IMG/VR virus record: IMGVR_UViG_3300024243_000465
Span: 1 to 24,372 of that record
DNA length: 24,372 nucleotides
Strand: one strand, 5' to 3'
Origin: a virus
A program made the translations under genes and the position numbers. Positions 721 through 24,372 of the stretch are shown piece after piece. The notes under the pieces are model-generated. The model searched no databases and had not been told where the DNA came from. It worked only from the letters and a program-made list of their open reading frames with translations. Within the stretch, counting starts at the first letter, position 1. The number at the start of each line of letters is the position of its first letter.

Positions 721-1731
721 CTACAATAAGCTTCTATCTTGTTTTAATAATGTCCCATAAAATGGAAACATTATTTTACCAGTATCATAAGGTGCGAGTC
801 CACATTTCTGTTCTGTTGTTGTAGCCGTACTTAATTCATAACCTATACTTTGAGATGTCCAAGTAACTCCACTATCATTAGATGTTAATAATATTACACT
901 GGCTGTTGTTGTATTCCTCATCATAATATATAAAATACCATTAGTATTAATAATACCATTATTCAAATCATAATCTGCATTATAATGTTTTAAAGTAACA
1001 GTATTAGTTGAATTAACATAATGATAAATTCTACCATCATCACAAACAATAATACAAGTGTCTGCATCTAAACATAGAATGCTTGATTGAAAGACTATAC
1101 CAGTCACATTATCATTAGTGTCTACCCAAGTAACTGCACTATCAGTTGTTTTCCAAATATTACCTGCAGAATCTACTGTATAACCAGTAGTACCATCAAA
1201 CATATCTATACAATAAACTCCTGCTCCAGGGGAGGTTGTAGCGTCTGTCCAACTTCCTCCACCACCTTCACTCAAGTCTGTACTGAAAACCACATGGTCT
1301 ACTCCACCTGCATCATCTCCACCAACTACAACTAGAGATGTTGTTGGCATACTAGCATCATAAACTTTTGTTAAAAAACCTGTTGCTGTTTCTGTTGCCC
1401 ATGTTGCACCACTACTTGATGTAAAAATTACTTTTCCACTATTTGCACCTTCTACTCCTACACCATAAGCAGCATTTGCTTTGCATAATCTTAATATTGA
1501 AATAGTACCTAAGTTAGCACTCTTAGCTGTGAATGTAGTTCCATTCCATAGTCCAACATTGCCAGCCGTTTGTACTAATGAATAATTAGTAGCACTATGT
1601 GCAATCACTCCTGAAAATTCAACTGCTGATATATGTTCAACGTCAAAAACTGGATTAACGTAAACGAAATCCTCGTTAACTTCTGCCGCTAATGCGTCAG
1701 TCCCTGCTGTAAATGTATTTGGTAATGTCAT
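721..1731 (-). CDS. Asp-box (BNR) beta-propeller virion protein, putative adhesin
   Basis: This 336-aa protein carries several Asp-box turns of the sialidase/BNR type: SSSGATW, TTDSAVTW, SNDSGVTW and a degenerate STDLSEGGGGSW. They recur between beta-strand-rich segments, as in YCF48-like or sialidase-like propellers. No catalytic Arg/Tyr set of a true sialidase could be assigned, so glycan binding rather than cleavage is inferred. The N-terminal 40 residues (after MTLPNTFTAG) may be the attachment piece. An AGGAGGAG ribosome binding site precedes the ATG. It lies downstream of the hub and next to another distal protein, the usual place for receptor-binding proteins. It could also be a passive structural cap. 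Confidence 0.65.
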   Translation of the reverse strand: MTLPNTFTAGTDALAAEVNEDFVYVNPVFDVEHISAVEFSGVIAHSATNYSLVQTAGNVGLWNGTTFTAKSANLGTISILRLCKANAAYGVGVEGANSGKVIFTSSSGATWATETATGFLTKVYDASMPTTSLVVVGGDDAGGVDHVVFSTDLSEGGGGSWTDATTSPGAGVYCIDMFDGTTGYTVDSAGNIWKTTDSAVTWVDTNDNVTGIVFQSSILCLDADTCIIVCDDGRIYHYVNSTNTVTLKHYNADYDLNNGIINTNGILYIMMRNTTTASVILLTSNDSGVTWTSQSIGYELSTATTTEQKCGLAPYDTGKIMFPFYGTLLKQDRSLL

Positions 1732-1743
1732 ATTTTTCTCCTC

Positions 1744-2676
1744 CTAAATTAATCTATCTTTTACAATGTATGTAAATTGGTCGGTATCACTTTTACTTTC
1801 TGCTGTATAAGTATCTTCACCACTCATTAAACTTGTTGCATCTTTATTGAAATTTCCAAATCCGTTAATATCGAACCCATTAGCATCGGTGGTTACTAAT
1901 ATTCCTCGAGTTTCAACTTCAAAGCTTGTCTCATCTATTACTGGATATCCACTAATATAATCTTTAACAAGGTCTGATTCTGCCCATCCTCTAAGTAGGT
2001 CCCATACACATTCGCCTGCCGAGAATGTAGTTGCTGCTACAGCGGTTGTTATTATTAATATAACTTCGTCTAATACCCCACTAGGATCTCCACCACCTTG
2101 AGTTAGTGATGACATTATAGCAGTTCCAGAAGTTACCCAATTCCAACCTGATGTTAATTGTGCTTTGGTTCTAACATATTCAAAATAAAGTCCTGCTCCA
2201 TCACCATTTGTTCTAAATCTAAGTTCTAATACAGTTCCAGCTGCAGCTAATAAATCATAAACTGCAGTCTCGTCCATATAAATCCATACACCAAAAGGTT
2301 CAGAGGCTGTCATTACTGTTCCAGCTGCTGCTAAATTTGCTATTGTCCATGTCTTACTAACACTAGTACCATTAGCCAATAAGTTCTGAGCAGTAACATC
2401 TGTTGTGCCACCTCCTGGTTTAAAGGTTATAATATTATCAGTTGATGTTGTTCCACCAGCACTCCCCACAAGATTTCCAGTATTACTACCATCATCATTA
2501 ATAGTACCATCTGTAATAGGTATTGCAATATCTAAATCAACATCACCAACATCTGGTGTACTATTTGATATTCCTACTTTAAATTGAGTAGGCACTAAAT
2601 AATCTGGTGTTGCCTTATATGCTCTATTAATTATAATTTGTCTTCCAGTATCGACAATGATTGATCCATTTGCCAT
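1744..2676 (-). CDS. Distal tail / host-recognition protein (310 aa)
   Basis: The sequence is a low-charge, Gly/Thr/Ala-rich, beta-strand-rich protein that starts with MANGSIIVDTGRQ after a strong GGAGG site. It begins 2 nt from the hub stop codon, so it is translated with the hub. The N-terminal part resembles short anchors that attach fibres or baseplate wedge proteins to the tail. The middle (about residues 110-180) has the alternating pattern of a jelly-roll or carbohydrate-binding domain. No family was recognised with certainty. Position between hub and propeller adhesin is the main reason for the assignment. Confidence 0.5.
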   Translation of the reverse strand: MANGSIIVDTGRQIIINRAYKATPDYLVPTQFKVGISNSTPDVGDVDLDIAIPITDGTINDDGSNTGNLVGSAGGTTSTDNIITFKPGGGTTDVTAQNLLANGTSVSKTWTIANLAAAGTVMTASEPFGVWIYMDETAVYDLLAAAGTVLELRFRTNGDGAGLYFEYVRTKAQLTSGWNWVTSGTAIMSSLTQGGGDPSGVLDEVILIITTAVAATTFSAGECVWDLLRGWAESDLVKDYISGYPVIDETSFEVETRGILVTTDANGFDINGFGNFNKDATSLMSGEDTYTAESKSDTDQFTYIVKDRLI

Positions 2677-2677
2677 T

Positions 2678-4618
2678 TTATTCCTCCATATATGCCCTTA
2701 TAACAGGCAATGTGATTTGCCCAAAACTATTTTTAGTTAAATCTATACTTGCTACTGCTGCATTATCCTCTGTGATCCTTATAAAAGTTCCTAAGCCATC
2801 TGATGATGTGACTGCGGTTCTTACACCACCAATTATAGTTTGCCATGTTGCTTTATTATCTGATGAAATTTCAATTAATAATGTTCCTACAACTGTTCCT
2901 AATGATAATGTAATGAACGATAATGTGCTTCCAATATCTATGGCTTCACTATACCATATTTGACCAGCTGTAAAAGATATATCTTGATTAACAGTATTAA
3001 ATGTAGCAGTGCTATTAATAGCGTCATGGAAATCAGTATCATAACAATGTTCTTCGTATGTCATATTACCTTGGACTAATTTAGGGACAGTTGCTGTTCC
3101 AAATGCAGTACCCCCCCATTCTTCAGTATTACTTCCAGGCTCGTCATTCCATTGTCCTTGTGTCGGATGATCCCATATTAATGAATCAGTATCAGATATT
3201 GTTTGCTTCTCTAATTTCATATAACGACGTCGTGGTTGGAAGGTTCTATCTAAATCTACAATTTGGATTAATATATCATCGTTCTTATTTTGTTGTTCTT
3301 CTAATCTTTTTATTCTATCTAATGTTAATTTATTATATTCTGCTAACGCATATTCTTTATTACCACAATGTAATTTATCGAATTTATGTGGCCAGCTTCT
3401 TTCGATTTTATTTATTACTAATTCTCGTGTTTCACCATTAACGTTATCGACAATTGTAACTTTTTCACCAGCCCTGTAATCATTATCAATACTTGGCACA
3501 TTAAGTTTAACTCTTACAAATGGTTCTGCATAAGTATCTAAATATAAGGTTCCTCTATTAGTTGCGTCTTCAATTGTTTTAATATCACTGAAAGCTTTTG
3601 TTGTTGATGATAATCCATATGCATCAATACTAGTTTGTCGTTTTCTTAAAATCGGGACAGGAGATGGGTATGTATATCTCACCTCGACATAATCGGTTGC
3701 ACCTGGAGTATATGTTGTAGTATTCCAAACTATTAATTTATTTTCAACATCAACACTATAATCAAAATCTGCGACTGCTGTACCATCAATAGTTCCACCA
3801 ATTCTTAAAAAGGTAGGATCGTCTGATGGTGGGGTTGTCGCACCAGCCCAAACTTTAGTAGAGAATGGAGATTTCGTTAATAATACATCTGTTTGTGTAT
3901 AAGTTGGGTCAGTTCCTATCCTACCATTTTCAGTAGTCTCAACCATCTGTTCTGCACCATCTACACGAATTTGATTAACCAATTGGGTGTTATCAAACTC
4001 CCATTTAGGAATATTAGAAACATTATCACCGACTGTTAATGGATTTACATTTGTAGTATTACCTTCAGGTTCAAAATAAACAAAGTCATCATCATAGTTA
4101 TAATAAATTTGATAATTGAATGTATCTGCAATCCATTTTACTCTTTCAAATATATCTGTTTTCCTACATAAGAATTTATCTAATAATACTACTGCTCCTG
4201 TGTTGACTACTGTAGCCCCAGAATTAGTGCTTAGCCCACCAAATGTTGTTATTAATGTATTTGCTATTGCTGACGCAACACCTGCTTCTGAATCAATATC
4301 CTTATCGAAAGAAGTATTAACATCTGTTTTAACTAATGCGATCAACTTATCTCTTGCTTTTATTTGAATATAAGGTTGATTTTTACTAATGGTATCAACA
4401 TTACCTTTGAAAACATTATATTCTTGTCCGGTTATTGGTCCACGTTTAATAATAACTTCATCTCCATTACCAGGCGTTATAGTTGTAAAAAGACGTGATG
4501 CAAACAATAAAAAAGCGTCTGGAATTTCACTACCAAAAGTATCTATAAACTTACAACTAACACAATCACTAGTAACATCCACACCACCAATTGTTATGTA
4601 TGTTAGAACTCGTACCAT
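2678..4618 (-). CDS. Baseplate hub / tail-tip protein (gp27-like)
   Basis: This 646-aa protein starts with a tail-tube-like hub domain (MVRVLTYITIGGVDVTSD to about residue 95). Residues 150-185 (KTDIFERVKWIADTFNYQ, then YYNYDDDFVYFEPEG) match the pattern seen in phage hub proteins related to T4 gp27, Mu gp44 and siphoviral Tal proteins. Residues about 250-318 form an inserted beta-sandwich-like module, and about 340-450 return to the hub with a probable OB-like part. The C-terminal third, ending ITLPVIRAYMEE, looks like a separate jelly-roll. The start overlaps the preceding stop (TAATG) with a GAGGGAG site. It should form the trimeric ring that closes the tube and carries the adhesins. Confidence 0.7.
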   Translation of the reverse strand: MVRVLTYITIGGVDVTSDCVSCKFIDTFGSEIPDAFLLFASRLFTTITPGNGDEVIIKRGPITGQEYNVFKGNVDTISKNQPYIQIKARDKLIALVKTDVNTSFDKDIDSEAGVASAIANTLITTFGGLSTNSGATVVNTGAVVLLDKFLCRKTDIFERVKWIADTFNYQIYYNYDDDFVYFEPEGNTTNVNPLTVGDNVSNIPKWEFDNTQLVNQIRVDGAEQMVETTENGRIGTDPTYTQTDVLLTKSPFSTKVWAGATTPPSDDPTFLRIGGTIDGTAVADFDYSVDVENKLIVWNTTTYTPGATDYVEVRYTYPSPVPILRKRQTSIDAYGLSSTTKAFSDIKTIEDATNRGTLYLDTYAEPFVRVKLNVPSIDNDYRAGEKVTIVDNVNGETRELVINKIERSWPHKFDKLHCGNKEYALAEYNKLTLDRIKRLEEQQNKNDDILIQIVDLDRTFQPRRRYMKLEKQTISDTDSLIWDHPTQGQWNDEPGSNTEEWGGTAFGTATVPKLVQGNMTYEEHCYDTDFHDAINSTATFNTVNQDISFTAGQIWYSEAIDIGSTLSFITLSLGTVVGTLLIEISSDNKATWQTIIGGVRTAVTSSDGLGTFIRITEDNAAVASIDLTKNSFGQITLPVIRAYMEE

Positions 4619-4980: not shown

Positions 4981-6170
4981 TATGCCCCCACCCCATAACT
5001 TGTTCTTCCTAATGTTTCACGTTTTATAACTTCAGTAATTCTATTAGTGATTTTATCAATTAACGAACTATTTATTGATCCTGCATCCAACGCATTAATA
5101 TTCACGGTTACATTAATATTGCTGCCACCACCCATTCCTTTAAAACCATTCTTACTCGCCATAATATCATCATTAGGATCAAATTTTATAACTCTTCCAT
5201 CTGAAGTAATTAATGCGTCTCCAACGCTTTCATCGCCTTTTTTTTTACCACCACCCTTACTAACTATATTTTTCAAAAAGTCGGGTATCATCCCCATAAC
5301 TAATCCAACTATTTTATCTTTAGCACCTGCCAACCAAGTTTTTACTGCATTCCAAACCATTGATGAAAAATCTTCAATTGATTCCCATTTATCAGTTATC
5401 CATTTTATGACAGGTTCTGTAACTATAACGAATAAACTTTTAGCATCCTCCCATTTTTTACCAATCCAATCAAAAACAGGGGTTGTAACTTCTACATATA
5501 ATGATTTTGCGTCGTCCCATTTATCACTCACCCACTCCATAAATGGTCCGGTTATCCAATCATATGCTGTCCCTGCCGCGTCCCATCCGGCATGAGCCCA
5601 CTCAATAACCTTATCACTGACCCATTCCCACGCAGATTTTGCACCATCCCATCCTTTACCAGCCCAATCTACTATTTTGTCTTTTATTCTTTTAAATAAT
5701 GGTTTTGATTCTTCAAACTTTTCTGCTATTTTTTTAGCTGTATCAACAAGCCCTGCTCCTGGAATTATTGATTTTATCGCACCCTTCCCCACTTCTCCTA
5801 CTTTTTCTTCTAAGCCGGTTTTCTTAACAATCTTATTCCAAGCTCTTAGAAATGGTATGAGTAATTTTGCTAATATCATTATGAATGGTTTTAAAAAGAA
5901 CACAGCAACATCAGATAGTGGTTTTAAAAACATTAATAATAATGATGCAATTTGTGCGATCATTAATAATGGTGCTTTGAATGCTTGTATAACTGATAAC
6001 AACACACCAAGTGATTTAGCCATTGCTCCCATTGATTTTCCTAATCCTTTCATAGGTCCTACTAATCCACCACCACCTAATCCACCTTCTCCACCACCAG
6101 CAGCAGCACCTAATCCACCACCGCTTGATGTATCTAACATTAATTTCGCTTTTATTGTTGTTTCAGCCAT
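4980..6170 (-). CDS. Tape measure protein with 22-residue repeats
   Basis: This 396-aa protein sits directly after the frameshifted chaperone, the conserved place of tape measures. A Gly-rich N terminus is followed by a hydrophobic stretch at about residues 53-105, usual for tape measures and thought to help genome passage through the membrane. Residues 163-272 form five consecutive units of exactly 22 residues with the pattern xxPVxxWIxxKWxxAKSL. The C terminus (GSNINVTVNINALDAGSIN) looks like the conserved end of many tape measures. It is short for the family; if extended at about 0.15 nm per residue the tail would be near 60 nm (inference). The start overlaps the TGA of the chaperone frameshift product. 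Confidence 0.8.
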   Translation of the reverse strand: MAETTIKAKLMLDTSSGGGLGAAAGGGEGGLGGGGLVGPMKGLGKSMGAMAKSLGVLLSVIQAFKAPLLMIAQIASLLLMFLKPLSDVAVFFLKPFIMILAKLLIPFLRAWNKIVKKTGLEEKVGEVGKGAIKSIIPGAGLVDTAKKIAEKFEESKPLFKRIKDKIVDWAGKGWDGAKSAWEWVSDKVIEWAHAGWDAAGTAYDWITGPFMEWVSDKWDDAKSLYVEVTTPVFDWIGKKWEDAKSLFVIVTEPVIKWITDKWESIEDFSSMVWNAVKTWLAGAKDKIVGLVMGMIPDFLKNIVSKGGGKKKGDESVGDALITSDGRVIKFDPNDDIMASKNGFKGMGGGSNINVTVNINALDAGSINSSLIDKITNRITEVIKRETLGRTSYGVGA

Positions 6171-17285: not shown

Positions 17286-17810
17286 TTTTGTTTCCTCCTT
17301 ACCATCCATATTAATATCAAAGCTACGAGCTATTGCTGCAAATGCGTTCCTATTTGATTGTATAGGCACCCATGTTGCTTCAACTAACTCAGCCTCTGTG
17401 TGAACAGTAAATGATTTTCCTTCTATCTTTCGCTCTTCTTGAGCTTTTGGAATTGCACCGATAGAAATACCAGGATTTAGTCCTTTAGCTAATGCTTCTT
17501 CGACCATCCCTTTAATTTGCTGTGCCATAGGATTGCTTTTAAAGAAGAATGGTTTAGCAACGAGTGCTGTATGCCCTTCTTTTTCGACAACCTTAAGGTC
17601 AGTCCATCCGCCAATAAAATTCTCCATCTTATTAGTATGATTAGCTAATGCTGGTAAAACACCAGACTTAGCCCATTGTTGTAATAATGATTTATCCATA
17701 AACTCCATATCACGATCTAAAGAAGTATCAGATAATATTCCCACCATTTCACCAGAATTTATATCCTTTGTTACAGGACACCAGAGTGAAAGTTTATTTT
17801 TAGTTTCCAT
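16971..17810 (-). CDS. Prohead maturation protease fused to scaffold
   Basis: Residues 1-165 match the herpes-type serine protease fold of phage prohead proteases (HK97 gp4-like): early SDTSLDRDMEFMD, candidate catalytic His58 in LANHTNK, candidate Ser116 in PGISIGA, and ELVEATWVPIQSNRNAFA closing the domain. After residue 165 an acidic and then coiled-coil scaffold domain follows, containing the internal start described separately. The ATG overlaps the stop of the HNH gene, and the GGAGG site lies inside that gene. The enzyme should digest the scaffold and possibly capsid N termini during head maturation. Confidence 0.8.
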   Translation of the reverse strand: METKNKLSLWCPVTKDINSGEMVGILSDTSLDRDMEFMDKSLLQQWAKSGVLPALANHTNKMENFIGGWTDLKVVEKEGHTALVAKPFFFKSNPMAQQIKGMVEEALAKGLNPGISIGAIPKAQEERKIEGKSFTVHTEAELVEATWVPIQSNRNAFAAIARSFDINMDGKEETKMDKELEKVEEEVQNVPDEQAPEEEAKVEEPVAEEEPAVEEEPKAEEPVVAPEKSATELELQKLKKELEELKKKAVLKATVEPKVVEKELEPTLSNVLIKQFGGK

Positions 17811-18270
17811 TTACAGCCTCCAAAACAGTTCTATTTAAAAAATGATGATAAGCTTTATGCTCTCCACAATTGTTAAAAACATATATATTTTCAATAGAAT
17901 TATTTATTTTATTGTTATCTAAGTGATGAACCACTTCTTTATCTTTAAGATACCTTCCAAGTTTTTCTTCTGCAACTAATCTATGTTTGGCTACATATCC
18001 TTTATTATTCTTATACGGATGATTATCAGCTTTAACAAATAAATACCCACCCCTAAATAATTGTCCAGCTTTCCATGCTGGATTTTTAGTTAATCTTTTC
18101 GAAAGTGATTTGGCTTGATTTGGTTTTGAAACGCCCCACTTCCTTAAATATTTAAAAATAGTTCCAGAAGTACAGTAATATAATTGTGAAATTTTATCCA
18201 TGGAATAGTGTTTATTAACATATAAGTCAATGATTTTTAATTTATCTTTTTTCACGTTTTCTTTTACCAT
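17800..18270 (-). CDS. HNH homing endonuclease with HTH domain (free-standing, HNH-2)
   Basis: This 156-aa protein has an N-terminal helix-turn-helix (about residues 10-45, LKIIDLYVNKHYSMDKISQL and onward), a WKAGQLFRGGYLFV strand pair, and an HNH_3-type C terminus (YVAKHRLVAEEKLG, VVHHLDNNKINNSIENI, GEHKAYHH) with the two His and the Asn in place. The frame opens seven codons upstream, but the ATG at 18270 has GGTGAT before it and lies about 26-27 nt from the TATA centre. It sits between the MuF and protease genes and ends across the protease start, so it looks like a mobile gene fitted into the late block. Confidence 0.8.
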   Translation of the reverse strand: MVKENVKKDKLKIIDLYVNKHYSMDKISQLYYCTSGTIFKYLRKWGVSKPNQAKSLSKRLTKNPAWKAGQLFRGGYLFVKADNHPYKNNKGYVAKHRLVAEEKLGRYLKDKEVVHHLDNNKINNSIENIYVFNNCGEHKAYHHFLNRTVLEAVNGN

Positions 18271-18285
18271 ATTATATATCACCTT

Positions 18286-18308
18286 GTTCAAGTATTTAAA
18301 TAAAGTTT
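18286..18308 (-). promoter_or_regulatory. TATA-like promoter copy 2, in front of HNH-2
   Basis: It is identical to the copies at 8693 and 22378 and directly abuts the MuF stop codon. The TTTAAATA centre is 26-27 nt from the ATG at 18270, which would give a leaderless message with an archaeal polymerase. A GGTGAT site lies between, which would only be transcribed if the start point were nearer. Confidence 0.65.
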
Positions 18309-19409
18309 TTATTCTAGGTCAAATTCAATGATAGACCTACAATTTGGTCCGTGAGGAGGGTGTTCATAAGTCTTACCGGAGCTATGTTTAAAGATACCAT
18401 GTAACTCTTCGGTTTGACCATCTAATTCCTTACAAATTTGAGTTGTTCTATCATCTACAAATGAAACCCACTTCTTCTTACCTTTTAACCCTGAATCTTT
18501 ATATGCTGATAATTTACCAGCATTAATGAATCTATTACTCTCAGTTCTGGCAATCCTCATTGCTCTACCTTTAGTAATTTTACCTTTAACCTTGCCACCT
18601 TTGTTCTTAATGAATTCAGCTTGTATGTCCTTACGAATCTGGACAACACCTTGTTTCTCATTAATACCATTGGCTACAATGTTACTAACATTGTTCTGAA
18701 CATCTTGTGCTACTCCTTTTAATCCTTTCCATCTTTTGCCATCAATAGTAAACCCATCAAGTTGTCTATCTGCAAATAGTTTTACTTTTTTATCAAAATC
18801 TACTCCCACACCAATATCCATGTTCAACTCTTCTTCCGCTGCTTTAATTCCTTTCTTAACATCTAATTTAATAACACGCTTTAATTTGGTCATAAACCCA
18901 GCTGTATTAACAGTATTAAACAACCTACTAATAAAGTCCCCAAAAGACTTATCAACATAATCTTTTTGTATCTCATCTTTCAATGTCTCCTCTAAGAAGT
19001 TTAAGATTGTCTTTTCCCATTGATTCATTTTGAACCTTAGGAATTCAACATAACCATCAGCTTCATCTATCATCTCTTCACCAGCATCAATTTCAACCTC
19101 TTTCGTTAATGTATCAGGTAAATCTAAGATTTCTTCCTTTTTCTCTTTTAATGGGACAGCATCATGTAATATACTACGCTTGAAGTCTCTGACCGCTTCT
19201 TCAATAGATGCTTCGTATTGTTCACCAAATTGTTGAATTACACTCTTAGGGACCACTGTAAAATATTCCCAATAATCAACAGACCTAATAAATAGAGTAA
19301 ACTGGTTGCCTTCTTCAAGATAGTGCAATATACGCTTATCTTGTTGACGTGGATTCTTTTCCACAATTTCCATAAATTCGTTGTATTCTAATTCTAACAT
19401 TTTATTCAC
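18309..19409 (-). CDS. MuF-like head morphogenesis protein
   Basis: The C-terminal 85 residues carry the full MuF signature: ARTESNRFINAGKLSAY, then KKWVSFVDDRTTQICKELDGQ, then HPPHGPNCRS with the closing Cys/Arg/Ser. The first 280 residues are helical and charged, as usual for these minor head proteins. It lies between the portal group and the protease; in SPP1 (gp7) and Mu the MuF protein binds the portal and is ejected or stays inside the head. An AGGTGA site precedes the ATG, which overlaps the previous gene by 8 nt. Confidence 0.85.
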   Translation of the reverse strand: MNKMLELEYNEFMEIVEKNPRQQDKRILHYLEEGNQFTLFIRSVDYWEYFTVVPKSVIQQFGEQYEASIEEAVRDFKRSILHDAVPLKEKKEEILDLPDTLTKEVEIDAGEEMIDEADGYVEFLRFKMNQWEKTILNFLEETLKDEIQKDYVDKSFGDFISRLFNTVNTAGFMTKLKRVIKLDVKKGIKAAEEELNMDIGVGVDFDKKVKLFADRQLDGFTIDGKRWKGLKGVAQDVQNNVSNIVANGINEKQGVVQIRKDIQAEFIKNKGGKVKGKITKGRAMRIARTESNRFINAGKLSAYKDSGLKGKKKWVSFVDDRTTQICKELDGQTEELHGIFKHSSGKTYEHPPHGPNCRSIIEFDLE

Positions 19410-20538
19410 CTATTATTGATACATAATCTATATACAAATCGTGTGATGCATTACCACTTGTTGGGTGATAAAATCGTATCCACACTTCATCACTTCCACT
19501 AATGTAATCAGCGAGTATTGTCGCTTGTGATACAGGCATATCTGAATATCTATAATTGTGTCCTAATGCAGTTCCTGGTAAATGCCATAAGTTACGCCAA
19601 GTTGTGTTGGTGTGGTCATAAATTTGTATTTGACAAACGTGAGTTGCAGAACCAGCATAATAAGCAGAGATTCCTACCCTGCAGAAATTAGCAATACTAG
19701 TAAATACAAACTTAACATCAAACCCTGGAACCCCAGTAACTTCTGTAATGTGTACTTCACTTCCATCTTGCCAAGTTTGTGTACTAGCAACATTACCAGA
19801 AGTTAAAGTTCCAGTAGTTACAGTCATTGAGTTTGCTGTCTTTCTAGTGACCACTAAATCACAAGGTGTGTTATCTTTTGAAATTAAGGTCTTACTTGCA
19901 TCTGTCCATACTGGCTTTGATGCAGTCAAGGTATCAACATTAACGTCATCACCGAATTTAAAATAATCCTCATCTTCCATCCAAGTTATAATACCATCGT
20001 TAGTATCGCCATCAAATACTATTGAATAATCTATTCCTGCGGTGCCTTCACCAATAACAACTTCCCCTCTTGTTCCCACACCATTTGGTGCTCCTCCGAT
20101 AAATACTAAATTACCACCAGCACCATTACCACCAGCACTGCCCCCGCCCCTAAATATAATCTTCGTCCCATTGCCTGTTGGGGCAACAGATGCACCATAA
20201 CCAAATACATTACCTGTTGGAGCCACTGCTGCTAAATCGGTCTCTGTAATTATAAAATGTAATTGATTATTAAATAATAACCCAAGACTACCTTTAACTG
20301 TTCCACCAACTGGTTGATAATTTATTATTCTAGTTGATGTATCATATCCTGCAGCACCATCCCATCCCTCAGCGTTCAAATCTATATAATATGATGACAC
20401 CCCAAAATTCACACCTGTTGCAACACCATCTTTAGGAATAGAAATATCAGAAGGAATCTTAGTTGTTAAAATACCACTAGCATAAGTCCATTGAGTAGCA
20501 TCAAACTTACCTTCAAAAGGATTATATGTGTAGGTCAT
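19402..20538 (-). CDS. Virion adhesin-like protein in the portal-MuF gap (378 aa)
   Basis: The protein begins MTYTYNPFEGKFDATQWTYA. Residues about 120-170 are Gly-rich (FRGGGSAGGNGAGGNLVFIG), about 195-225 show the fibre phrase DDVNVDTLTASKPVWTDASK, and residues about 245-378 form a galactose-binding-like beta-sandwich (FDVKFVFTSIANFCRVGISA to IYDHTNTTWRNLWHLPG). It overlaps the 98-aa gene and the MuF gene, so the three are translated together. Fibre-like proteins are unusual between portal and MuF. It could be a portal-vertex or head decoration protein. Confidence 0.55.
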   Translation of the reverse strand: MTYTYNPFEGKFDATQWTYASGILTTKIPSDISIPKDGVATGVNFGVSSYYIDLNAEGWDGAAGYDTSTRIINYQPVGGTVKGSLGLLFNNQLHFIITETDLAAVAPTGNVFGYGASVAPTGNGTKIIFRGGGSAGGNGAGGNLVFIGGAPNGVGTRGEVVIGEGTAGIDYSIVFDGDTNDGIITWMEDEDYFKFGDDVNVDTLTASKPVWTDASKTLISKDNTPCDLVVTRKTANSMTVTTGTLTSGNVASTQTWQDGSEVHITEVTGVPGFDVKFVFTSIANFCRVGISAYYAGSATHVCQIQIYDHTNTTWRNLWHLPGTALGHNYRYSDMPVSQATILADYISGSDEVWIRFYHPTSGNASHDLYIDYVSIIGE

Positions 20539-20834
20539 TATGATTTAGTAACTGTTGCAATTCTATCACTAGCATCATAAGTAATAGTAACTGTTGCCAC
20601 AGTTGTTCCTCCAGATCCACCAGTCTTATAAGTTGCAGTCTCTATCTCACCCGCTCCATTACCTGCAGCGACATACGTTAATGCAATATAATCAAATTCA
20701 ACATCTATTAAACCAGAAGGACTAACAATATTACCAGAACCATCAACTTGTAGAACTCTTCTTGCAATTGCGTCATCTGCATATGATGCTCGGTTCTGGT
20801 CAACAGCTGCTTTAGTTGAATTGCTGTTTGCCAT
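20538..20834 (-). CDS. Small beta-rich protein downstream of portal (98 aa)
   Basis: The product starts MANSNSTKAAVDQNRASYAD and contains ARRVLQVDGSGNIVSP and TVTITYDASDRIATVTKS, the short strand-turn-strand pattern of virion decoration or fibre-base proteins. It overlaps the portal gene by 23 nt and the 378-aa adhesin start by 1 base (TAATG-type junction). No family is certain. It may be the attachment base for the 378-aa protein, judging only by coupling. Confidence 0.5.
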   Translation of the reverse strand: MANSNSTKAAVDQNRASYADDAIARRVLQVDGSGNIVSPSGLIDVEFDYIALTYVAAGNGAGEIETATYKTGGSGGTTVATVTITYDASDRIATVTKS

Positions 20835-22257
20835 TTTTCATGAACCCCTTAAATAATTTCTTATACAGCTTTTGTGATTCCCTATCTTCTTTCTTTTCGT
20901 CCTTATCCTTTTTCTTATCTCTATCTTTCTTCTCTTTGTCTTTAGGATCTTCTTCTTCGTCCTCATCGTCACCACCAATAGCACCACTATCAATCATCTG
21001 TTGTTGCATCATCATTGCCATTGGCTCGTCACCCCAATCGACAGGCTCTAAACCTTCTATTGCTCGTACTTCATTAATGGTTATTACATTAGCTGCAAGC
21101 TTTGCCATCATTTGTTCATGTTCTATCTTTTCAGCTGCATCATCACTAGGGAACCATTCAAACTTAATCTTATCGTGACCTATTAATTCGTTACGTATCT
21201 CGTTATTAATCTTCTGTGCTATCAATTGTAAATATGGCTTAATAGCATTCTTGATTGTTATTCGTTCTTGAGACTCACCAGTACTCTTATTACTATTCTC
21301 ATAGAATCCTACTTCTTGAGGACTTAATCCGTATGCTCCAAATACAACATGGAAATACCACTTTTGACCTTCCAACCAATCCATGTCTTTATTAGAAGTA
21401 GCAAGGGGGGTAAAGGAAGACTCAGAGTTATGGAAGACAAGTTTGTGGGGTTTGCCCTTAACTTGTTGTTCCCATGCTGATTGGAACGTCCTTAAATTAT
21501 CCAAGTCCATATTAACATTAACGATACCGTCGGGTGTAGCGTTATTAATAAAGAACTCTTTGTTATATCTTGTGGACTGGATCATAACTTCAACTTCTTG
21601 TTGTATGCTTTGTAGTGGTGACCATCCATATGGTGGTGATTCGGTCAATGTGTTAATCTTACCATATATGATTTCTTTCTTCTCGAATGGTATTGGTGCA
21701 CCTTGTACTTGCCTAAAACTATATTGGTAGTATGCTGGTACTGGATTACCATCTCCATCTTCACCTAGAATTCCATGCTCATTAATATTCATTAAGAATC
21801 TTCCACCATCATAAGAAAACAATTCAACAATCTCGCCACTTACATTATGTCCTTTATATACAACCCCAGAATCAATCTCTAATACATCTCTTAAGAATGG
21901 ACCCCATATATCCCAGAAAGCATCACCATTACGATTTGGATTTATCAATAACGTCTTTAACTTCTCAATATCCGTACTATAATCTTGTTCGTCTTCTTCA
22001 TCCGTATTAACAACATCCCAATCAATAATCATCAATTGTTTTATGATTGCATTTACAACCATCTGTACCCAACAAGATTTAGCGTATTGTCTTACCTCTA
22101 GGAGATTAATCCTACGTGGCACTCCCAACATTGGATTAAAGAACCATGTCGGTAATACAGGTAAGTCTGCTGTAGGTGTTATTTCTCCAGCGTTAAATAA
22201 TCTTATATCTTTTGCAAGATATTTCTTTGTGTTTTTTATTAAGTCTAGGATTCCCAT
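20812..22257 (-). CDS. Portal protein (HK97 type)
   Basis: This 481-aa protein shows the HK97/SPP1-like portal pattern: an N-terminal VQMVVNAIIKQLMIIDWDVV helix-strand, AYYQYSFRQVQG, EIIYGKINTLTESPPYGWSP with the conserved PxGxSPL-like turn, a WxFHVVFGAYGLSPQEVGF clip/stem region and a long C-terminal helix. The last 50 residues are a disordered acidic then Lys/Asp/Glu tail. It forms the dodecameric DNA entry ring at one capsid vertex. The message begins at promoter copy 3 and has a leader of about 105 nt. The ribosome binding site before the ATG is weak (TAGG). Confidence 0.85.
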   Translation of the reverse strand: MGILDLIKNTKKYLAKDIRLFNAGEITPTADLPVLPTWFFNPMLGVPRRINLLEVRQYAKSCWVQMVVNAIIKQLMIIDWDVVNTDEEDEQDYSTDIEKLKTLLINPNRNGDAFWDIWGPFLRDVLEIDSGVVYKGHNVSGEIVELFSYDGGRFLMNINEHGILGEDGDGNPVPAYYQYSFRQVQGAPIPFEKKEIIYGKINTLTESPPYGWSPLQSIQQEVEVMIQSTRYNKEFFINNATPDGIVNVNMDLDNLRTFQSAWEQQVKGKPHKLVFHNSESSFTPLATSNKDMDWLEGQKWYFHVVFGAYGLSPQEVGFYENSNKSTGESQERITIKNAIKPYLQLIAQKINNEIRNELIGHDKIKFEWFPSDDAAEKIEHEQMMAKLAANVITINEVRAIEGLEPVDWGDEPMAMMMQQQMIDSGAIGGDDEDEEEDPKDKEKKDRDKKKDKDEKKEDRESQKLYKKLFKGFMKNGKQQFN

Positions 22258-22403: not shown

Positions 22404-23637
22404 TTATCCAAAGAACCAGCCTATTTGTTTACTTCTCAATCCATGAGCAGCACATGCCAACGCATCACAAAAGTCATCACGATTACCCTCGCCATGATGC
22501 AACTTAAGATTGCCAGACTCTGTTGTCTCATAACGAAAGTCTTTTAATTGGAATATTAACTTCTTATGATTAGGTATTAATAGTTTGCCTTGCTCCATTA
22601 ATAGTTTTAGGTTACTGAATATATCCATCTTATTCTTTTGTGTGAACGTAACACCAATAACAATATCCACACTATCATGAGGTGTCTTATATGTATCTTG
22701 CTTTAATGTCTTAGGTGGATTAAGATCTCTACTAAGCACATCAGAAACACCAGCACCTAGTCCAGTGCTATCACATATTATCTTTTGGAACTTAAATCGG
22801 TTATGTAAATATTTAATATAGTCAATAGCTTCGTCCATGGTATTCTTAGGTATCTCTTTAATGAATACCACTTTATGTGGATCTCCTTTCTCAATTATAA
22901 CGAATACAGAACTATCTTCGCCTGCCCTCGCAAGGTATATGCAATAAAGAGGGGTTACCTCATTATTTCTGCACCAAGGACATATGTTTTGTTTATCATT
23001 TTAGTCTTTGTGACAATAATTACAAAGCGTTAATAAATTGCTTTTTTCATTGTTTTTACTTTCCCTCCATGGTATTATATGATGAACATGTAATCCTTTT
23101 GTCTTTTTTAAACCACAATTTTGGCACGTGTAATTATCACGTTCTAATATTGATAATCTTAATTCCATCCATTCTTTGTAATTGTCTCTATAATCTCTTT
23201 TTGATGGGCCACCTTTCCACATAGGGTTTTTTTCTCTAAATAAACCATATTTAACTTTATCTGGATTTTCCTTTTTAGTTAATCCTTTATTCCATGCCTT
23301 TTTTCCTTTCTGTCTTTTACTTTGTAATTTGGCCATCCTATATTTATATAATATAACTTTTGGATGATCATTACCCAATACTTTCTGCCAAGGAACATTA
23401 CCTTTTAAAGATTCTTGTGCCTTTTTTCTTATATGCTCATTCCACATTGGATTATTATGTAAATTTTTATATGTTGTTGCACAACTCCTACCACAAAACT
23501 TTCTATTATAACTTGGTGGTGCATTAAATTCTTTTTTACATTGTTTACAAATATTTATTGCCATACTTAATAGGGTATGAGTTCAAGTATTTAAATATTG
23601 TTATTGCAAGGTCCGCCCCTAATACATATGTTGGCAT
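22404..23637 (-). CDS. terL: Terminase large subunit, nuclease half, interrupted by an HNH element
   Basis: Two segments join in frame. The first, 23637-23606, encodes MPTYVLGADLA; the second, 22929-22404, continues RAGEDSSVFVIIEKGDPHKV. Joined length is 558 nt, 185 residues. All RNase H-like motifs are then present: Asp in YVLGADLARAG, Asp in KIICDSTGLGAG and Asp-Asp in NRDDFCDALA. Without joining, the first catalytic Asp is lost. The ATG has its own GAGAGG site, so this half is translated separately from the ATPase half. It should cut the viral concatemer at packaging. How the two segments are joined is not known, since no intron class could be assigned. Confidence 0.75.
23001..23564 (-). 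CDS. HNH homing endonuclease inside the terminase insertion (HNH-1)
   Basis: This 187-aa protein has an N-terminal Cys4-type finger (CKQCKKEF to CGRSC), NUMOD3-like DNA-contact motifs (RKKAQESLKGNVPW, AWNKGLTKKENP, EKNPMWKGG) and a C-terminal HNH with two zinc-binding Cys pairs: RDNYTCQNCG, LHVHHIIPWRESKNN, NLLTLCNYCHKD. It stops directly after the last motif, shorter than usual. The ATG at 23564 lies about 27-28 nt from the TATA centre of promoter copy 4 and lacks a ribosome binding site, which fits a leaderless message. It should spread the insertion into uninterrupted terminase genes. Confidence 0.85.
   Translation of the reverse strand: MAINICKQCKKEFNAPPSYNRKFCGRSCATTYKNLHNNPMWNEHIRKKAQESLKGNVPWQKVLGNDHPKVILYKYRMAKLQSKRQKGKKAWNKGLTKKENPDKVKYGLFREKNPMWKGGPSKRDYRDNYKEWMELRLSILERDNYTCQNCGLKKTKGLHVHHIIPWRESKNNEKSNLLTLCNYCHKD
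23581..23597 (-). promoter_or_regulatory. TATA-like promoter copy 4, in front of HNH-1
   Basis: The minus-strand core ATTTAAATACTTGAAC matches the three other copies, but the upstream flank differs (ACAAT instead of CTTT). It lies at the very start of the insertion. The conserved 7 bases after the TATA (CTTGAAC) in all four copies go beyond a plain TATA box and may be a binding site for a viral factor. Confidence 0.6.
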
Positions 23638-23775: not shown

Positions 23776-23901
23776 TCATTCCTCATATAATTTATTTACT
23801 TTTTTGCAATAAACACAAGTACCAAATATTTTATAATCAGTATAATATAGTTTATTAAAAGTATTACAAGCACAAGCTTCACAAGTTATTTCATCATACA
23901 T
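23776..23901 (-). CDS. Tiny zinc-ribbon-like protein 1 between the terminase halves (41 aa)
   Basis: MYDEITCEACACNTFNKLYY, followed by FGTCVYCKKVNKLYEE, gives two CxxC knuckles about 20 residues apart, the minimal zinc-ribbon layout. The ATG overlaps the ATPase stop codon (TAATG), with GGGTGA 6 nt upstream, so it is translated by coupling. No family could be named. It may be a nucleic-acid-binding accessory factor or a passenger. Confidence 0.55.
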   Translation of the reverse strand: MYDEITCEACACNTFNKLYYTDYKIFGTCVYCKKVNKLYEE

Positions 23902-24372
23902 TATATTTCACCCAGCATTTCATAATCACCAATACACTTATCAATTAACTCCCATGAGAAGAATGCATCCTCATCAGGAATAAACTCAGCACAATACTCT
24001 GTCCTAAACTCAATGCTATGTTCACCAAGCTGGTTCTTCTGCTCGTCAATGAAGTCCATAGTAAAATGTTTAGCATCTACTGCATGTTGCCACGTATAAT
24101 GATGACTCTTATATGCGTCATCTGATTGGAAGCTATTATAAAAATGGTTCATACTGAATGGGGTGCTAATCTTTATTACCTTACCTTGTGTTGCTGCTAC
24201 CATTGGCATCAATACTTGGTTTACTATGCTATCTTTAATATAAGCTGCCTCTTCCATTATTAATACATTAGCAGTCATACCTCTTATTGTATCACCACTA
24301 TCACCACAAGGAAATGCACTAATTCGACTATTCTTAATAACCATTTGCCTCATAGTAACAGAACTAACCTCA
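23901..24372 (-). CDS. terL: Terminase large subunit, ATPase half (5' end outside the window)
   Basis: The visible 157 codons hold the second part of the packaging ATPase. SRISAFPCGDSGDTIRG leads to the Walker B strand and catalytic Glu (NVLIMEEAAYI), then the coupling motif KISTPFS and the C-terminal lid (FRTEYCAEFIPDEDAFFSWE). The protein stops at LGEI, just where full-length terminases pass through a linker into the nuclease domain. The frame is open to the right edge, so the Walker A part lies beyond it. The motor half would power DNA translocation and must associate with a separately made nuclease half. Confidence 0.8.
   Translation of the reverse strand, partial: EVSSVTMRQMVIKNSRISAFPCGDSGDTIRGMTANVLIMEEAAYIKDSIVNQVLMPMVAATQGKVIKISTPFSMNHFYNSFQSDDAYKSHHYTWQHAVDAKHFTMDFIDEQKNQLGEHSIEFRTEYCAEFIPDEDAFFSWELIDKCIGDYEMLGEI

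Follow-up and report, generated by a model that had tools for sequence, protein, structure and literature searches.

A candidate bulge-helix-bulge mini-intron beside a free-standing HNH gene in the terminase nuclease gene of a probable archaeal tailed virus

A 32-nt insert with the geometry of an archaeal bulge-helix-bulge (BHB) intron was revealed in a viral terminase large subunit (TerL) gene, at catalytic motif I of the nuclease. The stretch of DNA analyzed (hereafter the window) is a viral record of 24,372 bases, which is linear and probably a fragment. We propose, with a probability of about 0.85, that the TerL nuclease is encoded there by two exons (22999..22969 and 22936..22404) split by a mobile 32-nt archaeal BHB pre-mRNA intron, which would be removed by a host endonuclease and spread by a free-standing HNH endonuclease. 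According to this proposal, the end of exon 1 would pair in the pre-mRNA with the end of the intron, giving a central helix of 4 bp with a 3-nt bulge on either side. Each bulge would be cleaved after its second base by the tRNA-splicing endonuclease of the host, and the exons would be sealed by the host's RNA ligase, so that the codon of the catalytic Asp is rebuilt. The adjacent HNH gene would supply a free-standing homing endonuclease, with the conserved motif I sequence of intronless alleles as its cutting site. Repair templated by the donor would then copy the HNH gene, a recoded start, the intron and flanking exon together, and the donor itself would be protected by the intron that interrupts the HNH target.

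Terminase locus, its insert and the probable host

TerL of the window is split into an ATPase cistron and a nuclease cistron on the minus strand, where all features given below are located as well. The 3' part of the ATPase cistron occupies positions 23901..24372 (Pfam Terminase_6N, 1.2e-5; PHROG terminase large subunit, 3e-18); the gene starts outside the window, and its ATPase part extends to 23901. The nuclease cistron starts at 23637 with MPTYVLGADLA, in the same context as in the intact intronless allele of the related contig L005. Its frame is broken there by the HNH unit, leaving a displaced first nuclease start at 23606..23637. The HNH endonuclease gene that follows (23001..23564; 187 aa; Pfam HNH, 9.6e-11) is intact and lies outside the proposed intron. 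It is preceded by a TATA box, TTTAAATAC (23587..23595), which lies within a 15-nt context, TTTAAATACTTGAAC, that occurs four times exactly on the minus strand of the window (0.31 expected) and reads as an archaeal TATA element. The HNH gene ends one base before an ATG at 22999, where ATGATAAACAAAACATATGTCCTTGGTGCAG gives MINKTYVLGA-, the nuclease start once more in recoded form.

The first-pass annotation had noticed an interruption of nuclease motif I by an HNH element with its own promoter, and this was borne out; the HNH gene proved to be intact. It had also placed a single intron-like element of 676 nt at 22930-23605. The sequence features used for this placement do exist: ACCTTGC is present at both edges of the stretch, and TGCAATAA (23601-23608) is complementary to TTATTGCA (22940-22947). 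The 3' half of this complementarity belongs to the mini-intron's own pairing strands. The boundaries themselves had to be revised. The 676-nt stretch is composed of the complete HNH gene followed by a second nuclease start that carries a 32-nt insert of its own, the latter two lying within the last 70 nt, and removal of the 32 nt only also restores GADLARAGED, with 4/4 central pairs. Hence the assignment to an HNH-linked intron of archaeal BHB type, and not of group I or II, was retained, but its 676-nt extent and the location of the HNH gene inside it were not. A good BHB is found in the duplicated nuclease start. The suggestion of a new or relaxed splicing type, or of a true disruption, is not needed.

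Only two in-frame junctions in the stretch restore the motif, and one of them, picked out by a BHB scan, is a canonical BHB. Exon 1 (22969..22999; MINKTYVLGA-G) ends with GGTGCAG at 22969, and exon 2 starts with ACCTTGCG at 22936 and continues to the stop codon (22404..22936; AC-CTTGCGAGG; Pfam Terminase_6C, 1.1e-5). The 32-nt mini-intron AAATAATGAGGTAACCCCTCTTTATTGCATAT (22937..22968) is located between them. The predicted central helix is formed by GTGC in exon 1 (22971..22974) and GCAT in the intron (22939..22942), all 4/4 pairs being present, with the bulges AG|A and AT|A and an intron hairpin (helix h) of 5+4 bp (AATAA/TTATT and GAGG/CCTC). A cut after the second base of each 3-nt bulge would rebuild the catalytic Asp codon (G|AC); the joined product (MINKTYVLGADLARAGED...; MINKTYVLGADLARAGEDSSVF...) has 187 aa and contains the restored GADLARAGED. 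Shuffled versions of the insert reached an equally good BHB score with P = 1.2e-4, and of the 787 short BHB candidates that the minus strand yielded, the motif ranked third. The stability of the fold is not significant (z -0.9), and the minimum-energy structure lacks the BHB. On the exon side, helix h' at bulge b comprises a single pair, beyond which come an internal loop and an exon stem with interruptions (9/12 pairs in the register used); the motif therefore falls short of a perfect hBHBh'. By its predicted pairing, the insert is a good BHB and not a relaxed one. Another candidate BHB in the window, at GAGG/CCTT, was rejected because it yields a stop or no helix h.

The minus strand of the window carries all head genes, encoding terminase, portal, Mu-F-like protein, protease-like protein and major capsid protein (MCP). 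The only annotated MCP relatives found were from a haloarchaeal tailed virus, and the nearest matches of the TerL nuclease were from a Halogranum tailed virus and Thermus phages. The related contig L009 encodes a family B DNA polymerase together with an ERCC4 nuclease; the phage matches of the latter belong exclusively to haloarchaeal viruses. Taken together, the TATA elements, the MCP relatives and these two L009 genes make an archaeal host likely; the window virus is probably a tailed virus infecting an archaeon. A provirus search for the host with the nuclease and portal as queries revealed no relative in 84,980 species genomes, and tRNA genes were found neither in the window nor in 16 related loci.

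Several other features of the contig family were observed. In the window (18309-22257, minus strand) the portal and Mu-F-like protein are separate, with two ORFs between them; in L009 they are fused, and a single 750-aa protein matches the Mu-F protein of the window. L009 also contains genes matching PTPS (QueD-like), radical SAM, GTP cyclohydrolase I and QueC (1374-3943), a set that suggests 7-deazaguanine DNA modification. Genes judged by eye to be cytosine-C5 methyltransferase-like lie between or near the terL parts in L010 (9193-9810; no Pfam match) and L043 (~1526-2220), and a TnpB-like OrfB_IS605 gene is present in L080 (12840-14147, minus strand), in the contig of L010. The ATPase and nuclease cistrons overlap or are adjacent, without an insert, in L027, L053 and L058, and TerL is fused in L011, L013-L017, L059, L063, L065 and L066. 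About 197 nt upstream of terL in L005 (1044-1239) are extra in comparison with L023.

BHB inserts in related viruses

Nuclease searches led to about 20 distinct viruses of this group. Motif I was found to be interrupted in five more contigs, by 60 nt in L010 and by 31 nt in each of L012, L043, L060 and L029; as L060 and L029 are near-identical, the five contigs represent four lineages. Their inserts are located a few codons away from the insert site of the window.

In every lineage the motif-restoring junction is a canonical BHB, with 4/4 pairs in the central helix as in the window: GAGG/CCTC with bulges TT|A and AG|A in L010, TAGG/CCTA with AT|T and AG|G in L012 and L043, and AAGG/CCTT with AT|T and AT|G in L060. 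P for the BHB at the restoring junction was <1e-5 for L010, 3.5e-4 for L012, 3.6e-4 for L043 and <1e-5 for L060. A cut after the second bulge nucleotide would give the exact motif in all five cases, the window included, the other spliced products being GADLARLGQD (L010), GCDFARMGQD (L012) and GADLARMGQD (L043 and L060). The restored ARLGQD and ARMGQD are identical to the motif of intronless relatives. The codon split at the junction, G|AC in the window, is TT|A in L010 and AT|G in the others.

The intron-side helix h has 12 bp in L010, 5+3 in L012, 4+3 in L043 and 9 in L060, and the z-scores of the folds are -4.1 (L010), -4.1 (L060), -2.3 (L043) and -1.6 (L012). The L012, L043 and L060 introns align without gaps and contain 7 pairs changed on both sides, with 92% paired cells; this covariation covers all three helices, and its counts are few, being drawn from three sequences. 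It was matched by none of 500 shuffles and was lost if the partners were slid by 1-3 columns. The first central pair is TA, TA and AT in L012, L043 and L060, respectively, and GC in L010. Pairing extends into the exons in all four lineages (10-12 of 12 pairs). Intronless alleles also hold 6-10 of the 12 exon-stem pairs, since motif I itself is partly palindromic.

A split-homology screen of the contig family revealed no clear case of a second mini-intron, and the homologous 31-nt intron pattern was found in 2.9 million viral contigs at no locus beyond the four known terL loci.

HNH gene, signs of mobility and alternative readings

An HNH gene or its remnant accompanies the insert in three of the four related lineages. 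Upstream of the intron the gene is complete in the window and in L060, where a free-standing endonuclease thus stands beside an ORF-less intron; it is 5'-truncated in L012 and reduced to a 30-aa remnant in L043. In L010 the intron is present and no HNH gene was found. The HNH protein of the window shares 62 of 170 residues with that of L060 (E 1e-27) and belongs to a common family, with 250 relatives in viral contigs. The L060 HNH frame (5373-5978) runs on through MKSYILGADLAR (exon 1) and stops in the intron. Splicing is needed to bring it into frame with the nuclease and would fuse the HNH protein to the nuclease unless translation starts internally. A second HNH gene of the window (17803-18291, minus strand), with the same TATA element (18286-18300), is located directly upstream of the protease-like gene; there is no mini-intron at this place, as the start of the protease-like gene matches its L009 homologue without interruption.

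Close intronless relatives were found for the window (L005, which provides an empty site of the kind that the first-pass annotation proposed to look for), for L043 (L068) and for L060 (L027). In the window/L005 and L043/L068 pairs divergence is concentrated at the junction. The window and L005 nucleases differ only within the first 17 codons (0-16) and are identical over the rest of the 150 compared. Across 120 codons spanning the junction, L043 and L068 have 26 synonymous and 1 nonsynonymous nucleotide differences, mostly near the junction, and L060 diverges from its intronless sister almost exclusively by synonymous changes within 20 codons. Such clustered divergence is the footprint expected of co-conversion, in which the intron would have been gained by one allele rather than lost by the other, and the L043/L068 pattern points to purifying selection on the spliced reading.

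Other explanations of the locus were also considered. It is quite improbable that a single large intron with a relaxed BHB spans all 676 nt and contains the HNH gene, the displaced MPTYVLGADLA start being spliced to exon 2. Its removal does rejoin GADLA and RAGED in frame, the 8-bp stem noted above is present, and both bulges offer CC|T cuts (offset 3). However, just 2/4 central pairs form at this junction, as the first-pass annotation had stated, and the second start and the frame-perfect 32-nt BHB would be left unexplained. Nor would this be a general mechanism: a search of L043 and L060 for a nuclease start upstream of the HNH gene gave none, so that a large HNH-containing intron of this kind cannot form there, and the small BHB is present in both. 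A group I or II intron was rejected, given inserts of just 31-60 nt and the covariance-model search of Rfam, which gave no family match at the gathering threshold and no intron family among the weak matches.

True disruption, with the nuclease being a pseudogene in these viruses or supplied elsewhere, appears very improbable. Splicing is indeed required for the gene to be readable, and the contig represents a fragment. Yet the window, L010, L012 and L060 have an intact exon 2, which in L043 stays open as far as the available sequence reaches, the divergence from intronless sisters described above is almost all synonymous, and BHBs at the exact restoring junction are not expected of random inserts. 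T4 gene 60, located beside mobA, is read by ribosome bypass. Hopping of the ribosome over the 31-60 nt inserts would be in line with a small hairpin-bearing insert adjoining an HNH gene and with the likeness of this layout to the mobA insertion that splits the T4 topoisomerase gene (PMC2988022), but we regard it as even less likely than disruption. The conserved residue requires joined split codons, which codon-to-codon hopping cannot provide; no take-off and landing codons were found that match and would yield the product, and the BHB geometry is canonical in every case. An AGG-to-AGG bypass in the window was rejected, as the catalytic Asp would be lost. Finally, the contigs are metagenome assemblies, but the chance of a sequencing or assembly artefact is close to negligible: the insert is identical in four assemblies of the window virus (the window, L004, L006 and L007), which makes a chance error unlikely, and the L060-virus insert is the same in two.

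Comparison with known systems

The BHB mini-intron proposed here resembles the cbf5 pre-mRNA introns of archaea (Thermoproteota), which are cut between the second and third bulge nucleotides, are 16-44 nt long, contain no ORF and interrupt a protein-coding gene (PMC2738675). Unlike here, cbf5 is a cellular gene, and its intron is too short for a homing endonuclease gene and not linked to one; in our case the gene is a viral terminase gene, the intron is present or absent between close alleles, and an HNH gene is adjacent. Until a 2020 study, cbf5 was the sole reported archaeal mRNA BHB intron; this study added one case, Haloferax HVO_1309, also a cellular gene, in which the intron lies in the untranslated leader (5' UTR) and not in the coding sequence (PMC7714728). 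Documented archaeal mRNA BHB introns are thus very few (PMC2738675, PMC7714728). In the open-access literature, to which our search of published papers was mostly confined, we found no viral gene reported to carry such an intron. If confirmed, this would be a rare BHB intron of a protein gene and, as far as we found, the first in a virus.

An HNH-linked viral BHB intron gained or lost between close alleles would offer a testable origin for such introns. It would also explain seemingly broken terminase genes in metagenomes and would mean that viral packaging depends on host tRNA splicing. Genes split by such introns will be missed by gene callers. It seems fairly probable, moreover, that we deal with a two-part selfish element of archaeal viruses, in which a free-standing HNH endonuclease is combined with a protein-spliced BHB mini-intron masking the HNH target in the donor allele, and the host tRNA-splicing machinery keeps the essential terminase active. 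Homing would then proceed without a self-splicing intron, and BHB introns would have a way into protein genes.

The cases of collaborative homing known to us involve self-splicing introns. The likeness to this process, described in phages, is that an intron lacking an endonuclease has next to it a free-standing one, which is pre-adapted to the site of intron insertion (PMC2988022); the difference is that the intron here would be a protein-spliced, putatively archaeal BHB one. T4 mobA/gene 60 and Aeh1 mobE/nrdA are similar in that an HNH gene splits a critical gene at a conserved site with its function apparently kept (PMC2988022), whereas the unit described here adds a recoded start and a putative intron, and the ATPase and nuclease of TerL are encoded by separate cistrons. 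Archaeal rRNA introns likewise link a BHB intron with a homing endonuclease, but their endonuclease ORF is inside the intron (PMC2738675); here the HNH gene is outside the 32-nt intron, and the gene interrupted encodes a protein.
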